Shown: one piece after another, positions 13,331 through 62,553 of the stretch
How positions within the stretch are numbered: position 1 is the stretch's first letter
Layout of the letters: every line of letters starts with the position of its first letter
From: Tetracentron sinense
Lineage: Eukaryota; Streptophyta; Magnoliopsida; Trochodendrales; Trochodendraceae
Reading direction: 5' to 3'
Assembly: GCA_015143295.1 (NCBI GenBank)
Contig: CM026567.1
Location: 14,960,416 to 15,024,415 of the forward strand
DNA length: 64,000 nucleotides
Program-made: the position numbers and the translations under genes
The notes under the pieces: generated by a model
Seen by the model: only the letters and a program-made list of their open reading frames with translations
Told to the model about the DNA's origin: nothing
Databases searched by the model: none

Positions 13331-15449
13331 TGTAGAGACCCGAAATTATTTTCTTGTTATTCGTGCAATTGTTTTGAATTTCTAGATAAATGTGTCAAAT
13401 TTAAATGCATGATTCTTATAAAAAATTAATGTTTAATATCTCGAATAAGAAAAACTATTTATTTCGTTAATTCTAACTCGTTCCAAGGAATAAATTGCAT
13501 GAAAAGAAAGCTAGTCAAAAGTAGCAAAAGACTAAAAAAAAAAGTTGTTGATTGGCGCACTGGCTGATCGATCAATCATCGGCAATGATTGACCGCCCTC
13601 CGGCGGCGATCGATCGCTCGAAACGCCGATTTTTCTCGGGTTTTGTGATTTTTTGATTTATTGGACTCCTTGGGGTTCCCAACCCTATATATAACCCTTA
13701 TATTCGTGGGTTGAGGGTTTCTAAATCATTCTAAACCTAAAAGAGAGAGAGAGAGAGAGAGAGAAGGTTATTTTGAGAGATCTAAGAGAGGAAATCAAAG
13801 GTTTTGCAAGGAGAAGAGCGTGAAGATTTAGATCGAGCCCATTCGCAAGCGCTTGATCGTAGGGAAGCGATCAGGAGAGGTAAATATGGATTCCTTTCTA
13901 CCAATAGGATGATTATTAATATAAACAAGAAGAAATTGTTAGATTTAAAGTAAGAAAACAAGATCAAGCATGTTATGTTATATAAATCATTTATAAAATG
14001 TGTTTATGATTTTTGGAGATGTTTTCTTTATGATTCTTATTATGTATATCAACAAGGGGAAATTGAATATTTTTGTGGTGTATGTATGATGGAGAATGGA
14101 GGAAAGGATGATTTTTGGACTTGATGGAATGATTATGATTTTGATTTAGAAATTGTGATGTGTTATGAAATTAGGGCTTTTGTTAGATTAATTTTATAAA
14201 AATTATATGTCTGAAATTGATGCGTGATTAATTAATTGTTTCATTATTTTATTGTTGAAAACCTTATAGATAATGTTTTAGATTTATTAATTATAAGAAT
14301 TTTGATATGTTTTAAATTGATGTATGATATACAAATTGCATGAATGATATATGCTTGTTAAAACAAACATGAATTAGGGTTGTGTGGCTTAGGGGTATTA
14401 TCATGACAGCTTTAGTCGTTATGATGAATCTTCGAGAGCCCTTAATCTATAATTTAGGGTTCAATTTAACTAAGGGTTATCATTGCTCACTCACACTCAC
14501 TCATGAATCGAATATACACAAGCATGAAGAGAAGCAAAAATATAAGAAATTCATATAAGTATACAAGTACACAAGCATGAATGCATTTTGAGTTTTGCAC
14601 GGCTCGAGTACCAACAAGCCTAAGATCAAGGCAAGACAAGCCGTATGCACCGGACAATGTGTAGACAAGTCGTATGCACCGAATAATGTACAGACAAGCC
14701 GTATGCACCAGATAATGTGTAAATCATGTGGTACCTCGGTAAGTAGGGTATATCATATATGTTAGTCTCTAAACAATATATGGGGTAGAGTTATTTTAAG
14801 TTATTGCATAAGTGCATGTTGTTTGATACACTTATGAACAAGAAAGACAAGATAAGTACAAGTGAGCACGTATAAGGATTGAATAAAAAAGATGTTTTCG
14901 CACTCTGAATTGTTATGTGTATACATGTATTATGAAATCATGATTTATGCTATATATTAATGTTGTTATATTATTAGTAAGGAGTTCATATACGCGGAGT
15001 GTTTTCAATACTCAACCGAACTGTTAATTTTCGGCAGATTCTAGGTTCGATATTTGTGCAACTGGACCTTAGAAAGAGGAAGAGTACAAAGAGGAAGAAG
15101 AAGATCCAACAGGTGATTATCCCGAGGGTAAATGAAATCTGGATCCTTGGCCATTTTCTGGAAATTGAATTATCAGTATTTAAATTAGAGTTCAAGACAT
15201 TGTAATAGACTTAATTTTGGAATTTATGGTTAGGTTAAATTGATAATTGAGAATCATGATGGATGATTTAAATGATTTATTATGTTTTAGTTTTAAATTG
15301 AGATATTTAGATTTAGTCGTGGTTAATTGAAAATAAAATTTCAGGTTTATATCTTAAATTGCCTTAAATGTTTTATGACATGATGTTATGATGGTTAAGT
15401 CACATGCCAAGGCCTCTTTTTAACCTAGGTGGGATTTTGGGGCGCAACA
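13331..15449 (+). mobile_element. Solo LTR, family 1, inside the Ogre-like LTR
   Basis: The sequence runs from TGTAGAGACCCG to GGGGCGCAACA, with the 5-bp repeats CCCCG at 13326-13330 and 15450-15454. It holds no coding sequence. The U3 part has a GATCGATC-rich palindromic cluster at 13551-13620 (perfect palindrome GCGATCGATCGC at 13606-13617) upstream of a TATATATA box at 13686. A (GA)n run follows at 13745-13764. It belongs to the same family as the minus-strand LTR at 58372-60719, sharing the start, the end, a 29-bp tandem repeat and a GATCGTAGGGAAGCGATC-like segment. Being nested, it is younger than its host LTR. Confidence 0.88.
14636..14722 (+). repeat. 29-bp tandem repeat, three copies, within the family 1 LTR
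   Basis: Three units of ACAAGYCGTATGCACC followed by GRAYAATGTRYAG start at 14636, 14665 and 14694. The same unit occurs four times on the opposite strand at 59133-59245 in the other LTR of this family. Confidence 0.85.
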
Positions 15450-26344: not shown

Positions 26345-26796
26345 TGCCATTAAAACATGATAGAAGCCAATCTATAGGGATAAAACCTCACGGATGCAAC
26401 TCTGAGTATCAACCGCTGAAGCTGACACGTATCTAATCCGTGAGATCAAAATCTCACGGATAAACCTTAGTGCCAACCTTTGAGAGGTTGACACGTGTAT
26501 AATCCGTGAGACCAAAATCTCATAGAAGAATCCCTAGTGCCAGCCTCCGAGTGGCTGACATGTGTATAATCTGTGAGACAAAAATCTTACGGATGATCTT
26601 TCTGTACCAGCCTCTGAGAGACTGACACGCGTACAATCCAAGAGACCAAAATCTCATGGATGAATCTCTAGTGCCAGCATTCAAGATGCTAACACATGTA
26701 TAATCCGTGAGACCAAAATCTCACAGATGATATTTCTGTGTCAGCCTCCGAGAGGCTAACACGCGTATAATTCGTGAGACAAAAATCTCATGGATG
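26345..26796 (+). repeat. Hairpin minisatellite of the G0 LTR, left part
   Basis: About seven units of roughly 60-64 bp. Each unit has two hairpins: CCGTGAGACCAAAATCTCACGG (stem CCGTGAGA/TCTCACGG) and a second like CAGCCTCCGAGAGGCTG. The word GACACGTGTATAAT links them. The Athila-like element is inserted in the array, which resumes at 35751. Stem sequences differ between units but often remain paired (see findings). Confidence 0.85.
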
Positions 26797-26801
26797 AATC
26801 C

Positions 26802-28129
26802 TGATCGGTGCTAGATGTTACACATATATGCACCTTAAACTTAAATTGTTAACCCTTTAGAGTAATCTTTTAAATCTTTTTATGCTACTTAATTATTTAT
26901 ATTTGTTTCAGGTTCATGCGAGAAAAAGAGTTTAAAATGGAAGGTTTAAAAGCTTTGAAGACTCATAAGGATCTCAAGAAGAAAAAGACTAAAGAATGGA
27001 GCAAAAATCAGAAGCAATAGAGACATTTTACTCTGGGCGATCGATCGCCCAGGGTGGGCGATCAATCGCCCTCCCTACGTGTGGAGATTTTAAAGCTGCG
27101 AGAAATTTATATTTTTGGTCCAATTTGATTATTCTTAAAGGCCCAAATTTCGTAGGGAAAAAAGAAAATATGAGTTGTAGTCAAATTAGAAGTCCTTATT
27201 GTGTAAGGACTTTATCTTTCTCTCTTTCTCTATAAAAGGGAGAATCTCTAGCCATAATAAAGGAGATATTCTTTGTAGAGACTTTGAATCAGAAAAAGGA
27301 GAAGCTCTGGAGATCAAGGAAGCCATGAAGAAGAATGCAGCAGCTTTGTCTATAAAGATGATGCATTCCTCCCTCGCGATGAACTAATTTTCATTCTAGG
27401 GTTTCGATGAAACCCTAGCCAAGTAACTGTGTCGTTCTATTTTGTTTCATTTTGATTTCTTAGTTGTAAAAAATTGATTGCATAATGAGAGGGTTGTTTC
27501 AACAACCAAAATTTATTTGAATATTATTTGATTTCAATGGAATTCTTAACCTTGTCTTAGGTATTATGAAATTGAAATTGAATTCACTTGTGTTCATTTT
27601 CATTAGGATTTAAACATAAGTTTTATGCAATGGTTTTAATATATCAAGAGATTAAATTTGAAAATATTTTATGCTAAGGGAAGACGAGTAATTATACAAC
27701 CGTAGATTTGTGTATATTATTCGTGCTAACCGAAGATACGATATGTTTAAAATATAATCTCTTAAACTTTTCTTGATCAGTTAAGAGGTGACATGCTGTC
27801 ACTCTAACTGGAATGTTTGAAATTTAAGAAGTTAGAATAAATTCAAAATAGGGATTAGTTATTAAGTTAGTGGTGGATTTGAAAACCCTAGATTTTCTCT
27901 TCCAAATGATTTAAAATCAGTAGTTGATAATTAAGTTAGAAATCTCTCTTAGTTTAATTAATTGTTTTAGTTTAATCAAGCAAAAATCAATTGTCCATCT
28001 CATTAGTTTAGAATTAATCTTGATAAAAGGTAACGAAACCAATGCAGTCCTCAGAGGAACGATACCCTTACTAGTACTATTCTACGAAATTATTACTATA
28101 AGGAATAATTTAAAATTGCGTGACGATCA
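26802..28129 (+). repeat. 5' LTR of the Athila-like element
   Basis: It runs from TGATCGGTGC to GCGTGACGATCA. The U3 contains the perfect palindrome GGGCGATCGATCGCCC (27035-27050) followed by GGGCGATCAATCGCCC. The TATA box TATAAAAG is at 27231-27238, so R and U5 begin about 30 bp later. Confidence 0.9.
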
Positions 28130-34416: not shown

Positions 34417-35745
34417 TGATCGGTGCTAGATGTTACACATATATGCACCTCAAACTTAAATTGTTAACTCTTTAGAGTAATCTTGTAAATCTTTTTATGC
34501 TACTTAGTTGTTTATATTTGTTTCATGTTCATGCGAGAAAAAGAGTTTAAAATGGAAGGTTTAAAAGCTTTGAAGACTCATAAGGATCTCAAGAAGAAAA
34601 AATCCAAAGAAGGGAGCAAAAATCAGAAGCAACAGAGACATTTTACTCTAGGCTATCGATTGCCCAGGGTAGGCGATCTATCGCCCTCCCTGTGTGTGGA
34701 GATTTTAAAGCTGCGAGAAATTTATATTTTGGGCCCAATTTGATTATTCTTAAAGGCCCAAGTTTCGTAGGGAAAAGAGAAAATAAAAGTTGTAGTCAAA
34801 TTAGAAGTCCTTATTGTATAAGGACTCTATCTTTCTCTCTTTCTCTATAAAAATGGAGAATCCCTAGCCATAATAAAGGAGAGATTCTTTGTAGAAATTT
34901 TGAATCAGAAAAAGGAGAAGCTCTAGAGATCAAGGAAGCCATGAAGAAAAATGCAGCAGCTTTGTGTATAAAGATGATGCATTCCCCCCTCGCGATGAAC
35001 TAATTTCCATTCTAGGGTTTCGATGAAACCCTAACCAAGTAACTGTGTCGTTCTATTTTGTTTTATTTTGATTTCTTAGTTCTAAAACATTGATTACATA
35101 ATGAGAGGGTTGTTTCAACAACCAAGATTTATTTGAATTATATTTGATTTCAATGGAATTCTTAACCCTTGTCTTAGGTATTATGAAATTGAAATTGAAT
35201 TCAATTGTGTTAATTTTCGTTAGAATTTAAGCATAAGTATTATGCAATGGTTTTAATATATCAAGAGATTAAATTCGAAGATATTTTATGCTAAGAGAAG
35301 ATGAGTAATTATACAACCGTAGATTTGTGTCTATCATTCGTGCTAACCGAAGATACGATATGCTTAGAATATAATCCCTTGAACTTTTCCTGATCAGTTG
35401 AGAGGGGACGTGCTATCACTCTAACTGGAATGCTTGTAATTTAAGAGGTTATAATAAATTCAAAATAGGGATTAGTTATTAGGTTAGTGGTGGATTTGAA
35501 AACCTAGATTTTCTCTTCCAAATGATTTAAAATTAGTAGTTGATAATTAATTTAAAAATCTCCCTTAGTTTAATTAATTGTTTTAGTTTAATCAAGCAAA
35601 AATCAATTTTCCATCTCATTAGTTTAGAATTAATCTTGATAAAAGACAACGAAACCAGTGAAGTCCTCAGAGGAACGATACCCTTACTAGTACTATTCTA
35701 TGGAATTATTACTATAAGGAATAATTTAAAATTGCATGACGATCA
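34417..35745 (+). repeat. 3' LTR of the Athila-like element
   Basis: It runs from TGATCGGTGC to GCATGACGATCA and is collinear with 26802-28129. Its palindrome cluster is near 34657-34686, somewhat degraded compared with the 5' copy, and its TATA box is at 34846. Confidence 0.9.
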
Positions 35746-35750
35746 AATCC

Positions 35751-35990
35751 CTAGTGCCATCTTAAGAGAGGCTGATACATGTATAATCTGTGAGACCAAA
35801 ATCTCACAGATGAACCTTAGTGCCAGCCTCCGAGAGGCTGATACATGCCTAATCCATGAGGACTAAAACCTCACGGATGAACCTTGGTGTCAACCTCTGA
35901 GAGGCTGACACGTGTCTGGACCATGAGGAGAAAACCTCACTTAGTGTTAACCTTTGAGAGACTAACACGTTTCCATAGGACTAGCCATAA
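35751..35990 (+). repeat. Hairpin minisatellite of the G0 LTR, right part
   Basis: This continues the array of 26345-26796 after the Athila insertion, with about four units. The clearest second hairpin is CAGCCTCCGAGAGGCTG at 35825-35841. First-hairpin words such as TGTGAGACCAAAATCTCACA remain paired. Confidence 0.8.
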
Positions 35991-38226: not shown

Positions 38227-41200
38227 TTTCTCAAGTATACTTTGGCCTAAACTTACCATCTTCCACCAAATCTAAACCAGAGGTTGGAATTCGATCCCAT
38301 TTCTTCTAGCGCATGTATTTCAATATATCCTAAGTGTTGAAGTTGGTTTCGAGGGAACCCGAGGCCGTTTGCCCGATTTGGGCACCGAGAAGACCGAAAT
38401 CCATGTTTCTCAAGTATACTTCAGCCTAAACCAATAAACGCCAACCAAATCCAAACCGAGGGTCGGATTTCGATGTCGTTTCTTCTAACGCGTGTATTTT
38501 AATATATCCTAAGTGTTGGAGTCAGTTTCAAGCAATTCCGAGGCCGTGTGCCTGATTTGGGCACCGAGAAGGCCGAAATCCATGTTTCTCAAGTATGCTT
38601 TGGCCAAAACCTATCACCTTTCACCAAATCCAAATTGGGGGTCGGATTTCGATCCCGTTTCTTCTAACGCGTGTATTTCAATATATCTTAAGTATTGGAG
38701 TTGGTTTCAAGCAATTCCGAGGCTGTGTGCCCGATTTGAGCACCGAGAAGGCTGAAATCCATGTTTCTCAAGTAAGCTTTGGCCTAAACCTACCACCTTC
38801 CACCAAATTCAAACCGGGGGTTGGATTCTGATCTCATTTCTTTTAGTGCGAGAATTTGAATATATCCTAAGTGTTGGAGTCGGTTTCAAGCGATTCCGAG
38901 GCCATGTGCCCGATTTGGGCATCGAGAAGGCCGAAATCCATGTTTCTCAAGTATGCTTTGGCCTAAACCTACCACCTTCTACTAAATCCAAACTGAGGGT
39001 CGGATTTCGATCCTGTTTATTCTAGCGTGAGTATTTGAATATATCCTAAGTGTTGGAGTCGGTTTCGAGCGATTCCGAGGCCGTGTGCCCGATTTGGGCA
39101 CCGAGAAGGCCGAAATCCATGTTTCTCAAGTATGCTTTGGCCTAAACCTACCACCTTCCATCAAATCCAAACTGGGGGTCGGATTTCGATCTCGTTTCTT
39201 CTAGCGCGTGTATTTCAATATATCCTAAGTGTTAGAGTTGGTATCGAGGGAATCCGAGACCGTTTGCCCGATTTGGGCATCGAGAAGGCCGAAATCCATG
39301 CATGTTTCTCAAGTATACTTCAGCCTAAACCAACAAACGCCCACCAAATCCAAAATGGGGGTCGGATTTCGATGTTATTTCTTCTAACGTGTGTATTTTA
39401 ATATATCCTAAGTGTTGGAGTCAATTTCGAGCGATTCCGATGCCGTATGCCCGATATGGGCACAGAGAAGGTTAAAATCCATGTTTTTCAAGTATGCTTT
39501 GGCCTAAACCTACCACCTTCCACCAAATCTAAACTGGGAGTCAAATTTTGATCTAATTTCTTCTAACGTGTGTATTTCAATATATCCTAAGTGTTGAAGT
39601 CGGTTTCAAGCGATTCCGAGGCCATGTGCCCGATTTGGGCACCGAGAATGCCAAAATCCATCTTTCTCAAGTATGCTTTGGCCTAAACCTATCACCTTCC
39701 ACTAAATCCAAATCAGGGGTCGGATTTCGATCACGTTTCTTCTATCGTGAGTATTTGAATATATCCTAAGTGCTGGAGTCGGTTTCGAGCGACTCTGAGG
39801 CCGTGTGCCTGATTTGAGCCCCGAGAAGGCCGAAATCCATGTTTCTCAAGTATGCTTTGGCTTAAACATACCACCTTCAACCAAATCCAAATCGGGAGTC
39901 GGATTTCGATCCCGTTTCTTCTAGCACGTGTATTTCAGTATATCTTAAGTGTTAGAGTTGGTGTCGAGGGAATCTGAGGTAGTTTGCCCGATTTGGATAC
40001 CAAGAATGCCGAAATCCATACATAAACCTCAAGTATACTTCGGCCTAAACCAACAAACGCCCATCAAATCCAAACCAGGGGTCGGATTTCAATGTTGTTT
40101 CCTCTAACGCTGGTATTTTAATATATCCTAAGTGTTGGAGTCAGTTTCGAGTGATTCCAAGACCGTAAGCCCGATTTGGGTACCGAGAAGGTCGAAATCC
40201 ATGTTTCTCAAATATGCTTTGGCTTAAACCTACCACCTTCCACCAAATCCAAATTGGGGGTCGATTTTCATTCCTGTTTCTTTTAACGCATGTATTTCAA
40301 TATATTCTAAGTGTTGGAGTCAGTTTCGAGCGATTCCGAGACTGTGTGCCCGATTTGGGCACCGAGAAGGCTGAAATCCATGTTTCTCAAGTATGCTTTG
40401 GCCTAAACCTACTACCTTCCACCAAATCCAAACCGAGGGGTCGGATTTTGAACCCATTTCTTCTAGTGCGTGTATTTTAATATATCCTAAGTGTTGGAGT
40501 CAGTTTCGATTGATTCCGAGGTTGTGTGCCCGATTTGGGCACCGAGAAGGCCGAAATCCATCTTTCTCAAGTATGCTTTGGCCTAAACCTAGCACTTTCC
40601 ACCAAATTCAAACCGGGGGTTGGATTTCGATCCCATTTTTTTTAACACGTGTATTTAAATATATCCTAAGATTTGGAGTCGGTTTCGAGTGATTCCGAGA
40701 CCGTGTGCTCGATTTAGGCAACGAGAAAGCCGAAATCCATGTTTTTGAAGTATGCTTTGGCCTAAACCTACCACCTTCCACCAAATCCAAACTGGAGGTC
40801 GGATTTTGATCATGTTTCTTCTAACGTATCTATTTTAATATATCCTAAGTGTTAGAGTTTGTGTTGAGGGAATCCGAGGCCGTTTGCCCGATTTAGGCAC
40901 CGAAAAGGCCGAAATTCAGGCATATTTCTCAAGTATACTTCGGCCTAAACCAACAAACGCCCAAAATCCAAACCGAGGGTCGAATTTTGATGTCATTTCT
41001 TCTAATGCATGTATTTTAATATATCCTAAGTGTTGGAGTTGGTTTCGAGCGATTCTGAGGCCGTGTGCCCGATTTGGGCAACTAGAAGGCCGAAATCCAT
41101 GTTTCTCAAGTATGCTTTGCCTAAACCAATCACCTTCCACCAAATCTAAACCGGGGATCGAATTTCGATCCCGTTTCTTCTAGCATGTGTATTTTAATAT

Positions 41201-41706
41201 ATCCTATGTGTTGGAGTTGGTTTCGAGCGATTACGAGGTCGTGTGCCCGATTTAGGTACCGAGAAGGCCGAAATCCATGTTTCTCAAGTATGCTTTGGCC
41301 TAAACCTACTACCTTCCACCAAATCCAAACCGGGGGTTGAATTTCGATTTTGTTTCTTCTAACACGTGTATTTGAATATATCCTAAGTGTTGGAGTCAGT
41401 TTTGAGCAATTTAGAGGTCGTGTGCCCGATTTGGGCACCAAGAAGGCCGAAATCCATGTTTCTCAAGTATGCTTTGGCTTAAACCTACCATCTTCCATCA
41501 AATCCAAACCGGGGGTCGGATTTCGATCCCGTTTCTTCTAGCGCATGTATTTGAATATATCCTAAGTGTTGGAGTCAATTTCGAGCGATTCTGAGGCCGT
41601 GTGCCCGATTTGGTCACCGAGAAGGCTAAAATCCATGTTTCTCAAGTTTGCTTTGGCCTAAACCTACCACCTTCCACCAAATCCAAACCGGGGATCGGAT
41701 TTCGAC
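38227..41706 (+). repeat. About 19 tandem monomers of a 180-bp satellite with higher-order pattern
   Basis: The word CATGTTTCTCAAGTATGC, or a close variant, starts monomers at about 38402, 38581, 38761, 38940, 39119, 39302, 39481, 39660, 39839, 40022, 40201, 40380, 40560, 40740, 40922, 41100, 41279, 41457 and 41636. Each monomer has TCGGATTTCGATC, ATTTCAATATATCCTAAGTG and GTGCCCGATTTGGGCACCGA-like text. A variant monomer (text AGCCTAAACCAACAAACGCC, preceded by CGAGGGAA and a CCGTTTGCCCG word) recurs at 38402, 39302, 40022 and 40922, that is every five, four and five monomers. No coding role is likely; open frames persist because 180 is a multiple of three. Confidence 0.95.
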
Positions 41707-47950: not shown

Positions 47951-49503
47951 GTCACGGAGAAGGTGCATCCGACAAGATGCACCACAAACAAGATGTTCCC
48001 AGCAGGATGCACCACAGACAAGATGTTCCTAGCAGGATGCATCCCTGACAAAGTGCACCCCACTCAGATTGCACCGTGGAGAGTGTACCCAACTTGGTAA
48101 ACACATTGCATGGTGGTTCAACCACTCTGCGACAGGTTAGGCCAATAGGGAGACCTATGTCAACCTCTAGGCCTAGTCAAATAGGCGGTCACAATTCGCA
48201 ACATTCTGCATTGGGGTGCCTCAAAGGCTGACATTAGGACCTGCTGCTAGTTGTAAGCCCCTTTAGTTCAAGCTGGCTGCGAGAACTCCCCTTTAAAAAA
48301 TTCTTCAAGTGGGGGAGATGCTGCCCAATTTTCATCAAGACAAAAGGAAATGGCTAAGTGCCTTAAGGACTTAATGAACAATCCCTCAAATAATCTTCTT
48401 GAGAAATACAAAGAAAATGAGAAAGATGCCCCAAGGCATTCATCCATGAACAAGAAGCGTCCACGGACAACAGTCCAAACCATCCCACGAATGGGAGACA
48501 GAGACCGTCCACAGACAGATATTCAACTCTGCCCATGGATGGGTATTCGAGACCATCTACGGGCAGACATTCAATGCTGCCCATAGACAGAACTCCAAAA
48601 CCATCTGTGGGTAGTCCCAACCCAAGCCCACAGACAAAAGATTCAACTCTCAAGGACAGAGGCCCAAGCCAGTCCACGGGTTGGAGGCATGACCTCCTCA
48701 TGGACACTAGCCCAAGCAGATCTATGGACAAGGTCCACAGACAGAATTCCCTCAAAAGGGAGAGAGATTCACAGACAAGTACTTTGTCCTCCATGGATAA
48801 TTCCCTCTCTAAGAAGAAAATAAGTTGGCAATATAAAGCCAACAAGAGAAGGGCTCCCTTGGGGCAGAATTCATCACCCAATTACATCAGTATTGACATC
48901 ATCAAATCAAGGAAAGAAAGGGCGGACTTACGGGTTTCTTCAAACAACGTAAGGGCCATTAACAACCGCGATCAAAGTCACCCGGCTATTAATGCAAGAA
49001 CTAACATGGACTCCTCATAAGCATACAAGAACATGTTGTTCTGGTTAGGTCCGAATGCCTTATGAGGCTTTAATTCAATAACCTTCACAGCAATGATGAA
49101 AGTTGTTCGCCATCAACGACCTCCGCCTAGAGATGTCAGTCCATTCTAGGGCCGAACAAACACATAACCGAAAAGAAGGAATACAGTACTCTATGACCCT
49201 CGGGTCAAAGTGTTGCGTAAAGCTCTTCTCTTTTTGAAATGTCAAGGAAGAAAACTCCTGAGTAGATCTTTGAGCTTAGAAATCAGAAATACCCTTCAAC
49301 GCCGCCCAGAAGGGTACACAACTACCGGTCAACACCAAGAAGGCCTCGGAAGCAAAGGCCAAGAAGGTCATCTGATGTTCCGATAGAAGCTCGCTCTGTC
49401 GTAGGGAATTGAGGACAAAAATCCTAGCTTTTACTCATCTTGTTCGGGAAGAACCAATAACCATGACGTCGCACCTCCATTATGAAAGGGTATCTGTTAA
49501 TGT
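47951..49503 (+). mobile_element. G0 gag N-terminal region, repetitive
   Basis: Opens with tandem copies of AGGATGCACCACARACAAGA-like text (to about 48070), the same words found at 37310-37330 and 45497-45516. From 48350 to 49020 there is a long frame rich in charged residues and in degenerate GTCCACAGACAG repeats, typical of the variable N-terminal gag region of Tat elements. Interrupted at 49504 by a solo LTR. Broken. Confidence 0.5.
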
Positions 49504-52364
49504 TGTCGCGCCCCAAAATACCCCCTAGGTGTTAGGATACTTTGGCGACGTTACTTAACCTTAAGGCAACCTGCAAGAGTATACAAGGCATGCAAAATAG
49601 TGAACTAGAGATTTTCTTTAACAAAAATGTGATTCCAAGTGTCAACATAAACAATGACCGGATAAAATACAATAATCCCAAGGGTGCAAATGCTTGAGTT
49701 ACCCACTCAAGCTCACACGAAAAATCCCTAAAAGAAAATCCCAAAATACATGTCCCTCTCTTACTCATCCCAACCTTTGGCCACATGCCAAGACTCCAAA
49801 TATCTGGGTGACCACCCGAGCGGTCTCCTGCTCTCCCTGAACTACCTCGATTCAAGGGACAAAAGTCCACATATCGCATAATGTACCTGCCGACATAAAA
49901 GTACGGCTGAACATGGAATACTCAGCGAGTACAAGCTACTAACTAACAATAATAATAACGATAAAATAACATACATAATACAGTTCATCATCACCTTTCT
50001 AAAATCAGAGTGCGGAAGCAATAACAAATAACAAGTATTATCTTGAATATCATATTTAACTCATACTTTAGGTTCATGCTTTAACTAACACACATTTCAC
50101 CTTCCTTGTGATTCTTGTAATTTACACTTTACATTTTATGCTTCTTGTGGTTTCCTCACATGTCGTATGAGATTATTCTTATTGGCTAGTACCTGAACTA
50201 TGAAATGGACAAACATACTAGGTTCTTATCTGGTTCTTGTCTCGTGAGTATCATGTGTATTTTCTTGTCGACTTGCTTGTGAATTTTCTTGTTTGCCTGG
50301 GAACAGATGATAATGCCCGTACTTGGTCTTAGTACATTATCACCCTTCCATTATTTCTTGGTTCTTGCTTGGAGACAGATACTAGTACCCGTACCTGATC
50401 TTAGTATACTAGTATCATCTCATACTTGTTGAAAACAGGTGTTAATGCCCGTACCTAGTCTTAGTACATTAACACCCTTTCATTCTTGTCTTGGAAACAT
50501 ATACTAGTGCCCATACCTGGTCTTAGTACACTAGCATACTTTCATGTTTGTCATGTTACTTGGAGACAGATGCTAGTACCCGTGCCTGGTCTTAGTATAC
50601 CAGCATCCTCTCATACTTGTTGGGGAACAGATGTTAGTGCCTGTATCTGGTCTTAGTACACTAACATCCTTCCATACTTCGTGATTCTTCCTTGTCATGT
50701 TTTCTTGTGAGCTAGGTATGACATATCCTAAGGATATGCCCTACCCTTGACATTCATATCTGTTTAACTTGTGAGCTAGAGGCTAGCACCCGAACATCCC
50801 TGGGCTACCAACCTCCTTGATGTTTCATTTTCTTATTCTTGTTGTTTCATCTACTCATAAAGGGAAAAACCTCGATTTATGCGTACGTGCTTGGTGTGTG
50901 ACCCTTGGTAATATCATGTTGGCATGAGACGATAAAACATAATATAGTAATTCAATTTCTAACATGATTGTATGAGAAATTGGGGAACATATAAAACATT
51001 TAATCAATTTTAGGCACATGATAGACATTAGAAATTTCACAAAGCATATCATTATTTTTACTAAAATTTGGGGAAAAGCCCTTAGTTCATATCTCATGGC
51101 TTTAGTTTCACATTGTACACAGGCATTACATCAAACACCTTGCATGCAATATTGTTTTAACCCTTTACATATATTTCCCTAACCTTATATTCCCAATCCA
51201 TTCATGCATTCTCTCAAACATGTGGTATTCAACCTTTTTACCTTTATTTATCTTGTATTTTCTCATTCAAGCATTTCATCAAACACATGGGGTATGTTCA
51301 TTATGAGTAAAGTGTCCTTCCACCATTTTTCATCACACCACACATCACAATACATAGCATCCAATCGCCTCTACATCCACCATTCATTCATACATCCCCA
51401 ACTCATCTTTTATCTTGTTTAATTTAGAGAAGTTAAGCATTTAAATCAAAGAGAGGGGAAAATAAGGGAGATTCAATACACATTATACCCAAGGAAGCTA
51501 GATTATTACCAAGGTAGTTAGGGTGTACTAACCTTGAAATCAAGGCTTGACCTTGATGAAACCTTGAAATAGAACCCCAAATGGTAGGAAAGAACCCTTG
51601 CTTGAAGAATGCTTGACTTGGGAAAGAAAGCCCTTACAAAATGCGGTAGGATCGCTGCCCTAGCTTGGAATGGAAATACCACATGAGCTTGAGGTTGGAT
51701 TTGATGAATCCAAGCCCTTTTGGGATGATCTTGGGTGTTTAAACCCTTGATTCACTCTCAAGATGCAACCCTAGGAGAAAACCCCTCTTCCTCTCTCAAA
51801 ATGCTGTCCTAAGGGTTTATGAAACCCTTAGGCTCTAGCAAGCCTTATAAGGCAAGGGTGAAACGCCCAAATGACGAAAAAGCCCTTAATGAAATTTCTG
51901 CAAAACACGATAGCCCGATCAATCGGTGGTCAGGACCGAGCGATCGGTTGCCTACCGAGCGATCGGTGTTCTTGACCGAGCGATTGGTCAAAAACACCCT
52001 CTCTGGAATTTTTTCCCATACAAAAAAGTACACTAGTCGATAGCCATCGATTGATCGGTTTTGGACCGATCGATCGCTAATCCTGACCGAGCGATCGGTT
52101 GCTCTGCAAATGTTTTACTAAGTCCATTTTTCACCCATTCCCACTACTTGGACTTATCCTATTTACCTTTTGACCTTTTCTAAACATGACTAGGACCCTT
52201 GTAAGGCTTATGGACATTAGTAAATAATTTATCTATTATATTATAGCATTCTTAACACAATTTTCTCAAAGTTCCAAATTCTCATTTCATGAAATTTGAG
52301 ATTACATGCCACCATGCCTTGACACATTTTCCAAGGCATATGCAAAAATTTTCGGGGTTCTACA
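49504..52364 (-). mobile_element. Solo LTR, family 3, with hairpin array
   Basis: On the minus strand it begins TGTAGAACCCCGAAAA and ends GGGGCGCGACA. Identical AATGT repeats lie at 49499-49503 and 52365-52369. The U3 palindrome cluster (51910-52100) has several copies of ACCGAGCGATCGGT and one ACCGATCGATCG. The TATA-like word CTTATAAGG lies at 51844-51850. The R/U5 part holds an unusual array of hairpins at 50308-50668. There is no coding sequence. Confidence 0.88.
50308..50668 (-). repeat. Array of six hairpins with covarying stems
   Basis: Six units of about 60-75 bp share the loop text CCCGTACCTGGTCTTAGTA. The flanking stems are, in order: TGATAATG/CATTATCA, GATACTAGTA/TACTAGTATC, GGTGTTAATG/CATTAACACC, ATACTAGTG/CACTAGCAT, GATGCTAGTA/TACCAGCATC and GATGTTAGTG/CACTAACATC. 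Four are perfect and two have one mismatch, although the stem sequences differ. The array lies within the solo LTR, downstream of its promoter in the minus sense. Confidence 0.9.
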
Positions 52365-53280
52365 AATGTGGTTGGCACTAGACTTCATCCAAATCTAGAA
52401 CAATTTACAACTTCGGTATTCCAAAGAACTGGGACACTGCCTGAGCAAGACCTGTCAGAAAGGCAACATTCTCATAACACAGCTGCTGCTATTGTAGTTG
52501 CCTTGGAGGAGGTAGAATCCTTTGGAGTAGTTGAAACACTGGTTCCTAATCAAAGGATTCCAAGGGGGAAGAGGGGCCACATAAATAAGGCCAACGGCAA
52601 AGAGAAAGTTCAAGATCTAACTCAGTCCAAGTCAGATCACAAGCAAAGGCCCCCAATCGATCATGCACAAGAACAACAGTCTGATCTGGATCTGGATATG
52701 AAGGAATGCCAAGATGGGTCATTAACCCCATTAACCTCTCTAAGAGAGTTGGGAAGAACACCTCAAATGGAAGGCTATGACTTTTAAGGACCAATCCTTA
52801 GTCTACAGTCCCAGAAGTGGTGCCAGACTTGCCTCAGGAAATTTATAGTGCACCTAACCCTCTATATGGAATGCCTAAATCCTTATTTTTAGAGGACGAG
52901 TTTCCATTATTGTTCCTTCCACAAGGATCAAGACATGATCGATCAGTAGCGGTCATGATGACAAATTTAGACGGGAACGGAAATCTAGGAAATCACCCTT
53001 CAACGTTGGTACCTCCACCATCAGGCGACCAAATAGTTGCTTTACAGGCTCAACTCAAGTACAAAGATGATGAGATCACAACCATCATGTCCTAAATGCA
53101 AGAATTGGCAGCTTTATTGACAGCTCTAAAATCTACGTCAGTTGCCCCATCGGCACTAGGATAAGCACTTCCCTTACCAAGGACAGAGCAGTAATCAAGG
53201 CACAACTACTGCACCTCCAAATCACCCAACTACACCAAAACTATGCCAATACAGGACCAAGCCTCACTTGTAGGAGGAAG
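52365..53280 (+). mobile_element. G0 gag middle region
   Basis: Resumes after the solo LTR with text such as ERQHSHNTAAAIVVALEEVE and a lysine-rich KRGHINKANGKEKVQ. A proline-rich segment and a coiled-coil-like ALQAQLKYKDDEI follow, which is usual just before the gag capsid domain. Interrupted at 53281 by a Copia-like solo LTR. Broken. Confidence 0.5.
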
Positions 53281-58371: not shown

Positions 58372-60719
58372 TGTCGCGCCCCAAAATCCCACCTAACTTA
58401 ATGTGAGACTTTGGCACGTGACTTAATCATTAATTCCATAACTTCTTATCATAAGCATTTAAGGAAATTCTAAAAACATGGACCTAAAAATTTATTATTA
58501 TTTTTTTTTTCTCTTTAAATAAATGCAATCAAGTCCAATATCTGAAATAAATACTAAGACCTCATAATCAATTTAAAATCAACCTCTATGAATCTCCAGT
58601 CATAAACTCAAACTAACTATAAATCCATAATTTGTCTATTACAATTCTAAAATTCAAAATCCAAATATACTAGTGATCTAGTGTCCTGTGTATGGCCAGT
58701 AATCCAAGTTCCATTCTCCATCAGGATAGTCACCTGCTGGCTCTTCCTGCTCTTCCTCGTATTCTTCCTCTTCCCAAGGTCCTGGGGTACAAATGTCAAA
58801 TCTAGTACCTGCCGACAACAACAGTCATCGGCTGAGTAACAAGTTACCCAGCGTATATACAAAATCCTGCCTAACAATATACGAGATTTGATAACAATAT
58901 ATTTTAAGATTCAACATCACAAGTGAACTCACAATATTTCAAAGTGCGGAAGCATAATTAAATTTGATTCTTACACCTGATTACTCATGCTTATTTCTCT
59001 TATTTATCTTGCCTATTTTTGTTCATGAATTTATTCAATAACATGCAATTGCAATAACTTAAAATAACTCTATCCCATATATCGGGTAGAGACTAACATA
59101 TACTCTACTTTCCGAGGTACCACACAATATACACATTATCCGGTGTACACGACTTGTCTACACATTATCCGGTGTATACGGCTTGTCTACACATTATCCG
59201 GTGTATACGGCTTGTCTACACATTCACCGGTGCATACGGCTGGTTTTGCCTTGATCATAGGCCTGTGGGTACTTGGTCAGTGCAAAACTCAATCATGCAT
59301 AATGCTTGTGTCCTTGTGTACTTGCATATTACTTGTCATCTTGTTTATTCTCATGCTTGTTCATGTATAGATTTCGTGAATCCGTGTGAATGAAATAAAA
59401 TACTTGTAAATCATGCATAGATTTAAACATGCAAGGGTTTTCCTAAGTGATCAATATAAAGCATAATTTGTCAAATAAAATAAGGGATAATTTTATTTAC
59501 CGCGTCTAAATTTTTAATACGCATCTATATTCAAATAAGTCTCACAGGGCCTTAGTTTTCACAACACATAATGATCTCAAACAAACTTATAATAATTTCA
59601 TCAATTCTGAACATCATCCACTTCCTCAATTCTCATCATTCATACACCACAAAATCAATCACATTCCCCTTGTTGATATAGAATAAAAAAATCATAAACA
59701 ACATCTTTTTCAAATAATTATCACAAAGAAATCACCATCTAAAATGTTCTTTATTCATCATATATATATTATCCATCAGATAACCAAGATCTAAAATTTT
59801 CTAACATCGTCTATAGATTTTTCAAGGGAAAATCCTGATTTAGAACATTACAAAAATCATCATATATATTTTCCATAAAAAAAATCTGGGTATGAACATC
59901 GTAAAATCATCATATATAATTTCCCATGAGAAAATCTGAGTATAAACATCATAAAATCCTCATATATAATTTTCATCATAGTTTAAAACAATAAAAACAT
60001 ATTTACTATTGTCGTTCTTACTTTAGATCTATTTCTTCATCATATTTGTATCAATAATTCCTATATTGAGAGGAAGGAAGTCGTATTTACCTCTCACGAT
60101 CGCTTCCCTACGATCAAACGTTTGCGAATGGGATGGATCTAAGCCTTTTTGTACTTTTTCCTTGCAACACCTTTGATTTCTCCTCTTGGATCTCTCCAAA
60201 ACCCTTTTTTCTCACTCTCTTTAATGAGAACTCATAGGTTTTTCTTCTATTTTTCTCTCTAATAAGTTTTAGAATGATAAAATACCTAAAATCCATGAGT
60301 TAGGATCTTTATATAGGCAATACCAGAGTTAGAAAGTGATAAGAACTGCTAAAACACTATTCACGGTTACTGTTCACGCGGTTACTGTTTATCGTATTTA
60401 CAGTTTTGCCACTGCACTTTGAATAATTCTATAGAGCTCAATTCTTATCGGATTAACCTGAAATTTGAACCATAGCTACTTTAGGTCATATAGAATCTAC
60501 ATTAAAATTTTCATAAATTTTGGATTGCACAAAATGACCAAAATGCCCCTCTTATGATAAAGGAGATTTCGTCTATTTTTCACTTTATTAATTTATAAAA
60601 CACCCTCATGCTACTTTAATTGTTCCAATTTTAAACTTATGTAATAAATTAATCATGACAACCAAGAATATTAAAATAATTGATATGAATACCAAGAAAT
60701 TAAATTTCGGGTCTCTACA
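58372..60719 (-). mobile_element. Solo LTR, family 1, minus strand
   Basis: On the minus strand it begins TGTAGAGACCCGAAATT and ends GATTTTGGGGCGCGACA. The flanks CACGT (58367-58371) and CATGT (60720-60724) are a target repeat with one change. The same family as 13331-15449. The TATA box (minus TATATAAA) is at 60308-60315; upstream of it, at 60355-60415, the CGGTTACTGTTCACG word is repeated. Longer than its relative by about 230 bp. There is no coding sequence. Confidence 0.85.
59133..59245 (-). repeat. 29-bp tandem repeat, four copies
   Basis: Units start at 59133, 59162, 59191 and 59220, with text ACATTATCCGGTGTAYACGR then CTTGTCTAC. This is the reverse of the three-copy array at 14636-14722. 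Confidence 0.9.
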
Positions 60720-61246: not shown

Positions 61247-62553
61247 GGAGAAATACATTTACACTCCATAAGGTTTGAGGAAAATACACATAGACCCCCG
61301 ACCCCCTCAGGTTTCAAAAAATACATTAGGTATTCCTACTTTTCAAAATATTAACACTTACACCCCTTCCATCAGTTGACCGTTAGTCAATTGACAGAAT
61401 GATGATGTCATGTGATAAAATGGTTTGAACTATAAAAAATGTCATCTCTAAAGTTGTCATTTTCCACTTTTCTCATATACGAAATTGTTCCCTCATTTTT
61501 AAATAAAGTCAAATCCTCTAGGGTTGGCCACGTGTTCTTTTTGACACCCTATAAATGGGGTAGATTCACCCACCCCTAGGGTTCACCTGCCCATCCTTGG
61601 TTTTTTTTTCTAAATATTAATTTTTTTTTAAATTGTTATGAAGATTTTTTTAATATTAAAATATTTAAAAAAAGAATTAATATTTTTTTTAAAAAAAACA
61701 AGGATGGGCTGGTGAACCCTAGGGGTGGCCACGTGTCCTTTTTGACACCCCTTGAAATAGCCATGTGTCCCTTTTGACACCCCATAACTATGGTTAAGAT
61801 TCACCCACCCCTAGGATTCACTCACTTTTTTTTTTAATTAATTATTTTTTTAAAATATTAATTATTTTTAAAAAATTTAAAAACTGTTTTTAAGGTTTTT
61901 TTAATCTTAAAATATCAAAAAAAAAAAAAAAGCCAATCATGGGCGGGGGAACCCCTGAGGTGGCCACGTGTCCTTTTTGACACCCTTTGAGGTAGCCACG
62001 TGTTCTTTTTTACACCACTTAAATGGGGTTAGATTCACCCACCCCTAGGGTTCATCCACCCATCCTTGGTTTTTTTTTTAAATATTATTTTTTTTAAATA
62101 TTTTAATATTAAAAAAACCTTTAAAATAGTTTTTTTTTTTTAAAATAAAAAAATCAAGGATAGACGGGTGAACCCTAGGGGTGGGAGAATCTAACCCCTT
62201 TAAGAGGTGTCAAAAATGACACGTGACCACCTCAAGGGATGTCAAAAAGAACATGTGGCCAAGGGATGTCAAAAAGGACATGTGGCCATTCCTAGAGATT
62301 TTAGCTTTATTTAAAAATGATGGGGCAATTTCGTATATAAGAAAAGTGAAAAATGACAACTTTAGTAGATGACATTTCATATCACTTATCACATGACATC
62401 ACTATTCTGTCAGTTAAGTAACGATCAACTGATGAAAATGAGTAAGTGTTAATATTTTGAAAAATAGGAGTACCTAATGTATTTTCTGAAACTTGAGGGG
62501 TCTTTATATTTTCATCACACCTGAGGAGACTCAGGTGTAAATGTATTTTCTCC
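61247..62553. mobile_element. Mutator-type foldback element with long terminal inverted repeats
   Basis: Both ends read GGAGAAATACATTTACAC or GGAGAAAATACATTTACAC when oriented outward-in, and inverted similarity runs for roughly 400 bp per side. The 9-bp direct repeat AAATTAAAA at 61238-61246 and 62554-62562 fits Mutator-like elements. There is no coding sequence; the centre is A/T homopolymer-rich with CCTAGGGGTGG and its reverse. The element is non-autonomous. Confidence 0.85.
61520..62290. promoter_or_regulatory. G-box array within the foldback element
   Basis: The word GGCCACGTGTCCTTTTTGAC and close variants occur near 61525, 61728, 61960 and 61997 on the plus strand, and as GTGACACGT-type text near 62217 on the other. 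CATGTG variants lie near 61767, 62249 and 62278. CACGTGTC holds a G-box and an ABRE-like core, bound by bZIP and bHLH factors in plants. Any activity here is inference. Confidence 0.55.

Follow-up and report, generated by a model that had tools for sequence, protein, structure and literature searches.

Sense-strand RNA hairpins, probably under selection, in the LTR of a Ty3-type retrotransposon of Tetracentron sinense

A solo LTR of an abundant Ty3-type retrotransposon in Tetracentron sinense carries six consecutive hairpins of one design, in which the loop is constant and the stems differ from unit to unit while staying paired. The LTR lies in a 64,000-nucleotide stretch of contig CM026567.1 (the window). 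We read the array as a selected set of RNA hairpins on the sense strand of the element and, judging from sequence comparison, give this reading a probability of roughly 70%. The first-pass annotation of the window had offered two readings of these hairpins, selection on RNA or DNA structure in the LTR transcript and a mutation process that mends one arm from the other; selection on the RNA structure of the LTR transcript is the best of these, and the selected strand can be named: the sense strand, which is the minus strand of the window. Covariation of the stem pairs, strand-specific wobble and the difference between older and more recent changes all speak for selection acting on the transcript. 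Plant LTRs are usually interpreted as DNA promoters, and hairpins within them as silencing targets. Clusters of hairpins in plant LTRs are already known; what is unusual here is the evidence that the RNA is selected.

The hairpins had been placed at 50308-50668; all six are present, over the slightly wider interval 50300-50673, with start-to-start spacings of 72, 60, 62, 69 and 61 (Table 1). The stem letters of each unit are those that the first-pass annotation gave, and the arms adjoin the 19-nt loop gaplessly. Its tally of four perfect stems and two with one mismatch is correct as to the letters, but the supposed mismatches are A.C pairs on the plus strand and G.U pairs on the sense strand. 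It also overlooked an outer 4-bp stem (GGAA/TTCC, GAGA/TCTC or GAAA/TTTC, depending on the unit), which covaries too. On the sense strand, each unit forms a hairpin of 15-16 bp, with a single bulged base on its 3' side and a fixed loop of ~17 nt (ACUAAGACCAGGUACGG); in sense order, it comprises the 4-bp outer helix, a fixed G.U pair, a 10-bp variable inner helix, usually a closing U.G pair, and the 17-nt loop. Hairpin type T5, which sits between T4 and T6 in other subfamilies, is missing from the window array. RNAalifold, unprompted, recovers the same helix from 63 sampled units (9 per type), with two-sided changes at 9 of its 16 pairs. All six hairpins form in the predicted fold of the window's minus strand, at -112.2 kcal/mol with z -2.73, an energy that none of 100 shuffles attains; for the plus strand, z is -0.34 and 40 of 100 shuffles are as low. 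A comparison of Rfam covariance models with 49400-52500 gave no match up to E 1.

Table 1. The solo LTR, its hairpins and its candidate transcription signals, in window coordinates
Feature	Position	Strand	Remarks
Solo LTR holding the array	49504..52364	-	2861 bp; TG..CA ends, 5-bp TSD
Hairpin type T1	50300..50349	-	last of six in sense direction
Hairpin type T2	50372..50421	-	
Hairpin type T3	50432..50481	-	
Hairpin type T4	50494..50543	-	
Hairpin type T6	50563..50612	-	
Hairpin type T7	50624..50673	-	first in sense direction
AATAAA	51243..51248	-	possible poly(A) signal; sense position 1117
TATA-like motif	51842..51849	-	putative promoter; 515 nt from U3 start

The boundaries and the orientation of the host element are well marked. 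On the sense strand, U3 starts with TGTAG.. at 52364 and U5 ends with ..GCGACA at 49504, and the TSD AATGT stands on both flanks of the LTR (49499-49503 and 52365-52369); the TSD around the L012 copy is ATATG. Across the 1.16-Gb genome, the loop 19-mer has 2143 perfect matches, 1082 of them forward and 1061 reverse, and the reversed-control 19-mer has none. An initial scan of the genome for array units gave 1734 candidate places. A PPT adjoins the LTR end equivalent to 52364 in L010 and L013, and a PBS (TGGTATCAGA..), which we take to be tRNA-iMet-like, follows the LTR end equivalent to 49504 in L030, L041 and L014. The placement of PPT and PBS in these relatives makes the minus strand of the window the sense strand of the element; the RNA is therefore the reverse complement of what the first-pass annotation described.

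The element is assigned to the Ty3 type because a Gag ORF in L030 matches PF03732 (2.2e-17) and PF19259 (6.4e-12) and the subsequent piece matches zf-CCHC (1.8e-5) in Pfam. The 5' LTR of this Gag ORF has no array match at up to 6 mismatches; the 3' LTR at L010, downstream of the same internal region, has five hairpin units. At L041, a Gag-like ORF behind an array-bearing LTR has no Pfam match. Two loci, L010 and L013, show the sequence just upstream of the PPT; there the frame extends slightly beyond the CCHC region and the PPT comes only ~300 nt further on, so that there is no space for pol; the five ORF pieces upstream of the PPT in these two loci have no Pfam match at E 0.1. With TR-GAG non-autonomous elements, the element shares LTRs, gag and, in those two loci, the lack of space for pol. 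With Tekay-type Ty3/gypsy chromoviruses it shares long LTRs, a tRNA-iMet-type PBS and Retrotrans_gag plus CCHC, a likeness to which no reverse transcriptase or chromodomain has been found to add a phylogenetic placement. At L029, an insertion near two array-bearing LTRs holds copia pol ORFs (RVT_2, GAG-pre-integrase); since these are on the opposite strand, the insertion is taken to be nested.

Comparison between copies rests on 77 array loci (5-kb stretches for 37 of them, from C1 and C2, and short stretches for the other 40) plus the window. Loci were chosen by an exact loop match or by likeness to the window array, and conservation of the loop is somewhat overstated for that reason. Typed yardsticks sort their 489 units into seven types, T1-T7, whose order recurs in most arrays; the arrays of L037, L039, L040, L042 and L043 are rearranged or more diverged. 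Alignable units number 5, 6 and 7 in 21, 41 and 7 of the 78 arrays, with extremes of 2 and 9. Covariation was counted in the 440 units (378 of them distinct) with at most 9 differences from a type, and types were tabulated from 433 units with at most 7; the other 49 of the 489, which differ from the nearest type at more than 9 places because they carry indels, are broken or are chance hits, were excluded from the covariation counts. No gaps are needed to align the units retained. Units are paralogues, and the covariation tree was made from the units themselves; because paralogous units may recombine, the independent events behind the counts perhaps number ten rather than hundreds.

The covariation signal is stronger than the first-pass annotation reported. 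When the 1711 column pairs of the 440 units are ranked by two-sided Watson-Crick covariation, the seven best are all stem pairs (in6, out2, in3, out3, in1, in7 and in10), two of them in the outer helix. Measured against a phylogenetic null in which each column's changes are redistributed along the tree (150 simulations), their E values over all column pairs are 0.000 for in6, 0.027 for out2 and 0.087, 0.14, 0.18, 1.05 and 3.3 for the rest; since among the seven E<0.05 is reached in this way by in6 and out2 alone, the significance of the covariation depends on the structure being given. Once the structure is given, covariation summed over its 15 pairs reaches 5.10, whereas the 500 null simulations average 0.32 and never exceed 1.62. 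The paired change of the stems, on which the first-pass annotation had built its case, is thus real and goes beyond the phylogenetic null. Watson-Crick double changes on the same branch number 8 in 14 stem pairs, as against 55 in 1526 others. Pairing on the sense strand holds for 97.4% of the 900 cells in the 63-unit sample, as against 33.7-53.2% with slid partners, and 111 cells are changed on both sides, as against 33.7 when shuffled (0 of 500 shuffles reach the observed count); for this sample, neither the number of pairs with two-sided change (70/500) nor the number of further pair types (448/500) exceeds the shuffles.

These comparisons bear on the simplest account of the array, that it is an ordinary tandem repeat, its duplicated stems too young to have decayed and its covariation a matter of shared ancestry. 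Most units of a type did inherit one common stem, and the T1-T7 order has likewise been inherited. Seven stem pairs, however, distinguish the seven types, in most cases with a change on each side; the tree-based null simulations fall short of what is seen; sliding the partners abolishes pairing; and the units align gaplessly. A plain repeat is, on this evidence, extremely improbable. Derivation of all the stem variants from one arm pair by whole-unit shuffling, which had been named as an outcome fatal to the claim of covariation, does not account for the array either: the seven types combine stem states that need several separate paired changes. In some types, moreover, both members of a pair differ from locus to locus (at in9 of T3, 15 A-T and 19 G-C of 67).

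The identity of the selected strand emerges from the wobble pairs. When each combination of type and pair is represented by its commonest state, 105 of 105 are standard pairs on the sense strand, as against 94 of 105 on the antisense strand, and all 11 antisense exceptions are A.C on the plus strand, that is, G.U on the sense strand. Seven of the 11 occupy the same position, in11, and these seven may come from one ancestral event. At the 14 pairs other than in11, the non-Watson-Crick states that are found in at least 6 units of a type (units of the same type being nearly all from different loci) are 12 sense-G.U, 0 sense-A.C and 0 other; the rarer states are 48 sense-G.U, 44 sense-A.C and 59 other. 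For shared versus rarer states of the first two kinds, Fisher's p is 0.001. Part of the 12 shared sense-G.U states may come from recurrent deamination (C-to-T); shared plus-strand changes at the same threshold are 8 C>T and 9 G>A in the loop and 12 C>T and 5 G>A in the flank. Among 24 arrays drawn at random from 71, the sense strand has the lower fold z-score in 23 (mean -3.73, as against -1.25 for the antisense strand; 20 shuffles each). Unit by unit, 412 of 440 are more stable on the sense strand, 25 on the plus strand, and 3 are tied; the arrays of L014, L015, L037, L040 and L043 fold well on the antisense strand too. The ratio of sense-G.U to sense-A.C in old as compared with recent changes offers a cheap general test for the selected strand of transposon-borne hairpins.

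That the old mismatches are G.U on one strand only disfavours DNA cruciforms. In duplex DNA, A.C and G.T amount to the same thing, yet one kind alone persists, and it is pairing that is conserved between types, not the sequence of the arms. A function at the DNA level, whether as inverted-repeat protein sites or as cruciforms, along the lines proposed for the palindromic cis-regulatory boxes of Sirevirus LTRs, is quite unlikely on these grounds, even though several arms hold short palindromic cores such as CTAG and published palindromic LTR arrays are interpreted as cis-regulatory (PMC2829016, PMC10760457). The location of the array is also at odds with that precedent: where a TATA-like motif is seen, the array is downstream of it, whereas the Sirevirus boxes are upstream of the TATA box (PMC2829016).

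The age of the changes separates selection from mutation. Old stem differences are paired, and those between close relatives are nearly all one-sided, a contrast that, so far as comparison of extant copies can tell, favours selection on the sense RNA in an active lineage. It comes from 36 disjoint closest-relative locus pairs, which are relatives and not proven LTR pairs. Stem changes are one-sided versus two-sided in the proportions 12 to 0 for pairs less than 3% apart, 64 to 1 at 3-6%, 70 to 1 at 6-9% and 34 to 3 at 9-16%; the two-sided changes expected by chance in these groups are 0.1, 1.1, 1.9 and 1.6. The two nearest groups (9 and 14 pairs) thus contribute 76 one-sided stem changes and 1 two-sided one. 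Watson-Crick pairing is preserved in 2 of the 5 two-sided changes, both in the most diverged group.

A process of templated correction, in which one arm of a hairpin formed in cDNA or DNA serves as the template for restoring the other, would generate paired changes without any selection. This is the mutation process that the first-pass annotation had put forward, and the paired changes that it would yield are perfect ones, including transversion pairs such as the C-G, T-A and A-T of in6. As a repair process acting on inserted DNA it is disfavoured: between near relatives, two-sided changes (0 of the 12 changed pairs in the nearest group, 1 of 65 in the next) show no excess over what independent hits predict. 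Correction confined to reverse transcription is compatible with one-sided recent changes, but that version, too, should erase old wobble pairs, and G.U is the majority state at in11 in all seven types and at other pairs in T1, T3, T4 and T6. Because it also leaves the strand bias, the constant loop and the scarcity of old alleles unaccounted for, we consider templated correction in either form unlikely.

The scarcity of old alleles is specific to certain parts of the unit. Raw changes per site, with base composition uncorrected, are 0.009 in the stem, 0.018 in the loop and 0.027 in the flank for locus pairs less than 3% apart, and 0.033, 0.062 and 0.068, respectively, for pairs 3-6% apart; since stem sites changed less than loop and flank, some of the differences between near relatives may predate insertion. 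Rare alleles (seen at most twice) arise at similar per-base rates in stem, loop and flank, 0.009-0.020 per site, with the lowest values for A and T in stems (0.009, as against 0.012-0.014). Alleles seen at least 3 times per column amount to 0.11 for A, 0.22 for T, 0.33 for C and 0.46 for G in the stem, to 0.10, 0.02, 0.52 and 0.55 in the loop, and to 0.50, 0.45, 0.85 and 1.09 in the flank, a class that includes the in11 columns and the bulge. Stem and loop accordingly have ordinary numbers of rare alleles and few shared ones, which suggests that dead copies decay almost freely and that the source lineage is constrained.

Selection on the sense RNA would operate as follows. In the active lineage, stems would be kept paired and the loop fixed, the letters of the stems being left to drift by compensating changes, often by way of G.U; after insertion, each copy would decay. 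A constant loop on stems of free sequence implies some partner that reads the loop and requires a stem to present it, and the 5-7 units per array in most copies might provide avidity for such a loop-binding partner. Another proposal is that the hairpins are small-RNA precursors, a by-product of silencing or a lure for it, retained since the host or the element benefits from their processing. A bulged stem of ~15 bp is indeed structured RNA, but it falls short of the ~20 bp or more typical of Dicer substrates; there is no obvious benefit to the element, and the constant loop is unaccounted for. We judge this proposal very unlikely. What speaks for it otherwise is that hairpin-rich regions of Copia LTRs are richer in small RNAs in maize (PMC10760457).

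In sense direction, the TATA-like motif of the window LTR precedes the first hairpin loop by ~1.19 kb. The window and 6 of 37 other loci (L009, L010, L012, L013, L018 and L028, of which L009, L010 and L012 are near-identical copies) have such a motif 460-515 nt from a U3 start. AATAAA precedes the first loop by ~590-662 nt in the window and in 11 of 37 other loci. With both motifs upstream of it, the array would be in U5 and probably in the 5' leader. Judging from motifs in a minority of loci, it is probably located in the leader of the genomic RNA, between the cap and the primer-binding site, where, if these motifs are used, it would follow the cap by ~1.1 kb and precede the primer-binding site by ~0.8 kb.

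A family with a Ty3 capsid and a CCHC knuckle makes Gag a natural candidate for the loop-binding partner. The retroviral psi/DIS leader consists of stem-loops with constrained loops that are recognised by the nucleocapsid of Gag. It is made up of a few unlike hairpins, whereas the array repeats one design 5-7 times in most copies; the array loop, moreover, lacks a 6-nt palindrome of the retroviral-DIS kind, and binding by Gag is conjectural. Our tentative guess is that Gag binds the hairpin array as a multivalent RNA signal that serves packaging or dimerisation. The wider form of this proposal, that tandem constant-loop hairpins in plant Ty3 leaders constitute a polymeric recognition code, maintained through selection on nothing but the RNA, by which Gag (or an RNA-binding protein of the host) is concentrated and the genome singled out for packaging, is more speculative still. 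We know of no described counterpart to a psi element that is built from repeats and, to our knowledge, the recognition of plant Ty3 genomic RNAs for packaging is little understood; no paper on packaging signals of non-autonomous plant elements turned up in a literature search. With about two thousand exact copies of its loop in one genome, the array is a concrete, testable candidate for plant Ty3 RNA recognition. GUAC and ACC-A-GGU within the loop could serve loop kissing; those positions are not the best conserved. Pairing between loop and leader was considered and rejected: a search for loop complements of at least 8 nt in the window LTR, L012, L028 and the leaders of L030, L041 and L014 found 8-9-nt complementarity in two leaders (L041 and L014), at different places, and none in the other four targets.

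The nearest known system is the palindromes of Sirevirus LTRs. Like the array, Sirevirus RM boxes (CACCGGACNNNGTCCGGTG in maize) are many short, hairpin-forming palindromic units clustered in a plant LTR. Their host is Ty1/copia, whereas that of the array has a Ty3-type Gag. With the exception of one element, the RM boxes share CGG-CCG as their core signature and are situated ahead of the TATA box (PMC2829016); the CGG-CCG core was not found in the stems of the array. The array, unlike the RM boxes, has stems that vary with compensation, a long constant loop, an outer helix, a bulge and strand-specific pairing. The repeated palindromic motifs of Sirevirus (Copia) LTRs are interpreted both as cis-regulatory and as small-RNA targets in PMC2829016 and PMC10760457. 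The latter describes maize Ty3 elements as generally having no obvious peak of such structures, and the strings 'covari' and 'compensatory' are absent from its main text. PMC6911290 deals with insertion sites and not with LTR hairpin arrays. The first-pass annotation's remark that no LTR feature of this form had been described must therefore be narrowed, as clusters of palindromes in Sirevirus (Copia) LTRs are published (PMC2829016 and PMC10760457); it holds for a covarying or compensatory hairpin array in a Ty3 LTR, of which a literature search, with subscription journals mostly outside its scope, found none. Inside the U3 end of the window LTR, at 51918-52105, there are CpG-rich palindromic repeats around CGATCGGT that recall the Sirevirus motif boxes.

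The window contains other repeats. A second tandem array, at 26358-26800 and 35746-35970, has ~67-bp units with two hairpins each, their loops around CCAAAA and CGA; a search in which 40 of 892 candidates were scored gave 79 matches to it. In its hairpin A, the best covarying pair is on the stem and 7 of the 10 top pairs are not stem pairs; in hairpin B, one stem pair is in the top 10. Both hairpins pair slightly better than do permuted arms, above all 200 permutations. With some covariation in A and weak covariation in B, the second array was rejected as an instance of the same phenomenon at equal strength. Direct repeats of 1.33 kb, 93.6% identical (26802-28129 and 34417-35745), look like the LTRs of a later element that inserted into this second array and split it. 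A satellite-like array of 19.4 copies of a 179-bp unit occupies 38227-41705. An identical 29-bp tandem repeat occurs in opposite orientations at 14634-14721 and 59130-59241, inside the inverted matches 14487-15449 / 59393-58372, and AT-rich nested inverted repeats at 61247-62553 form a fold-back structure.
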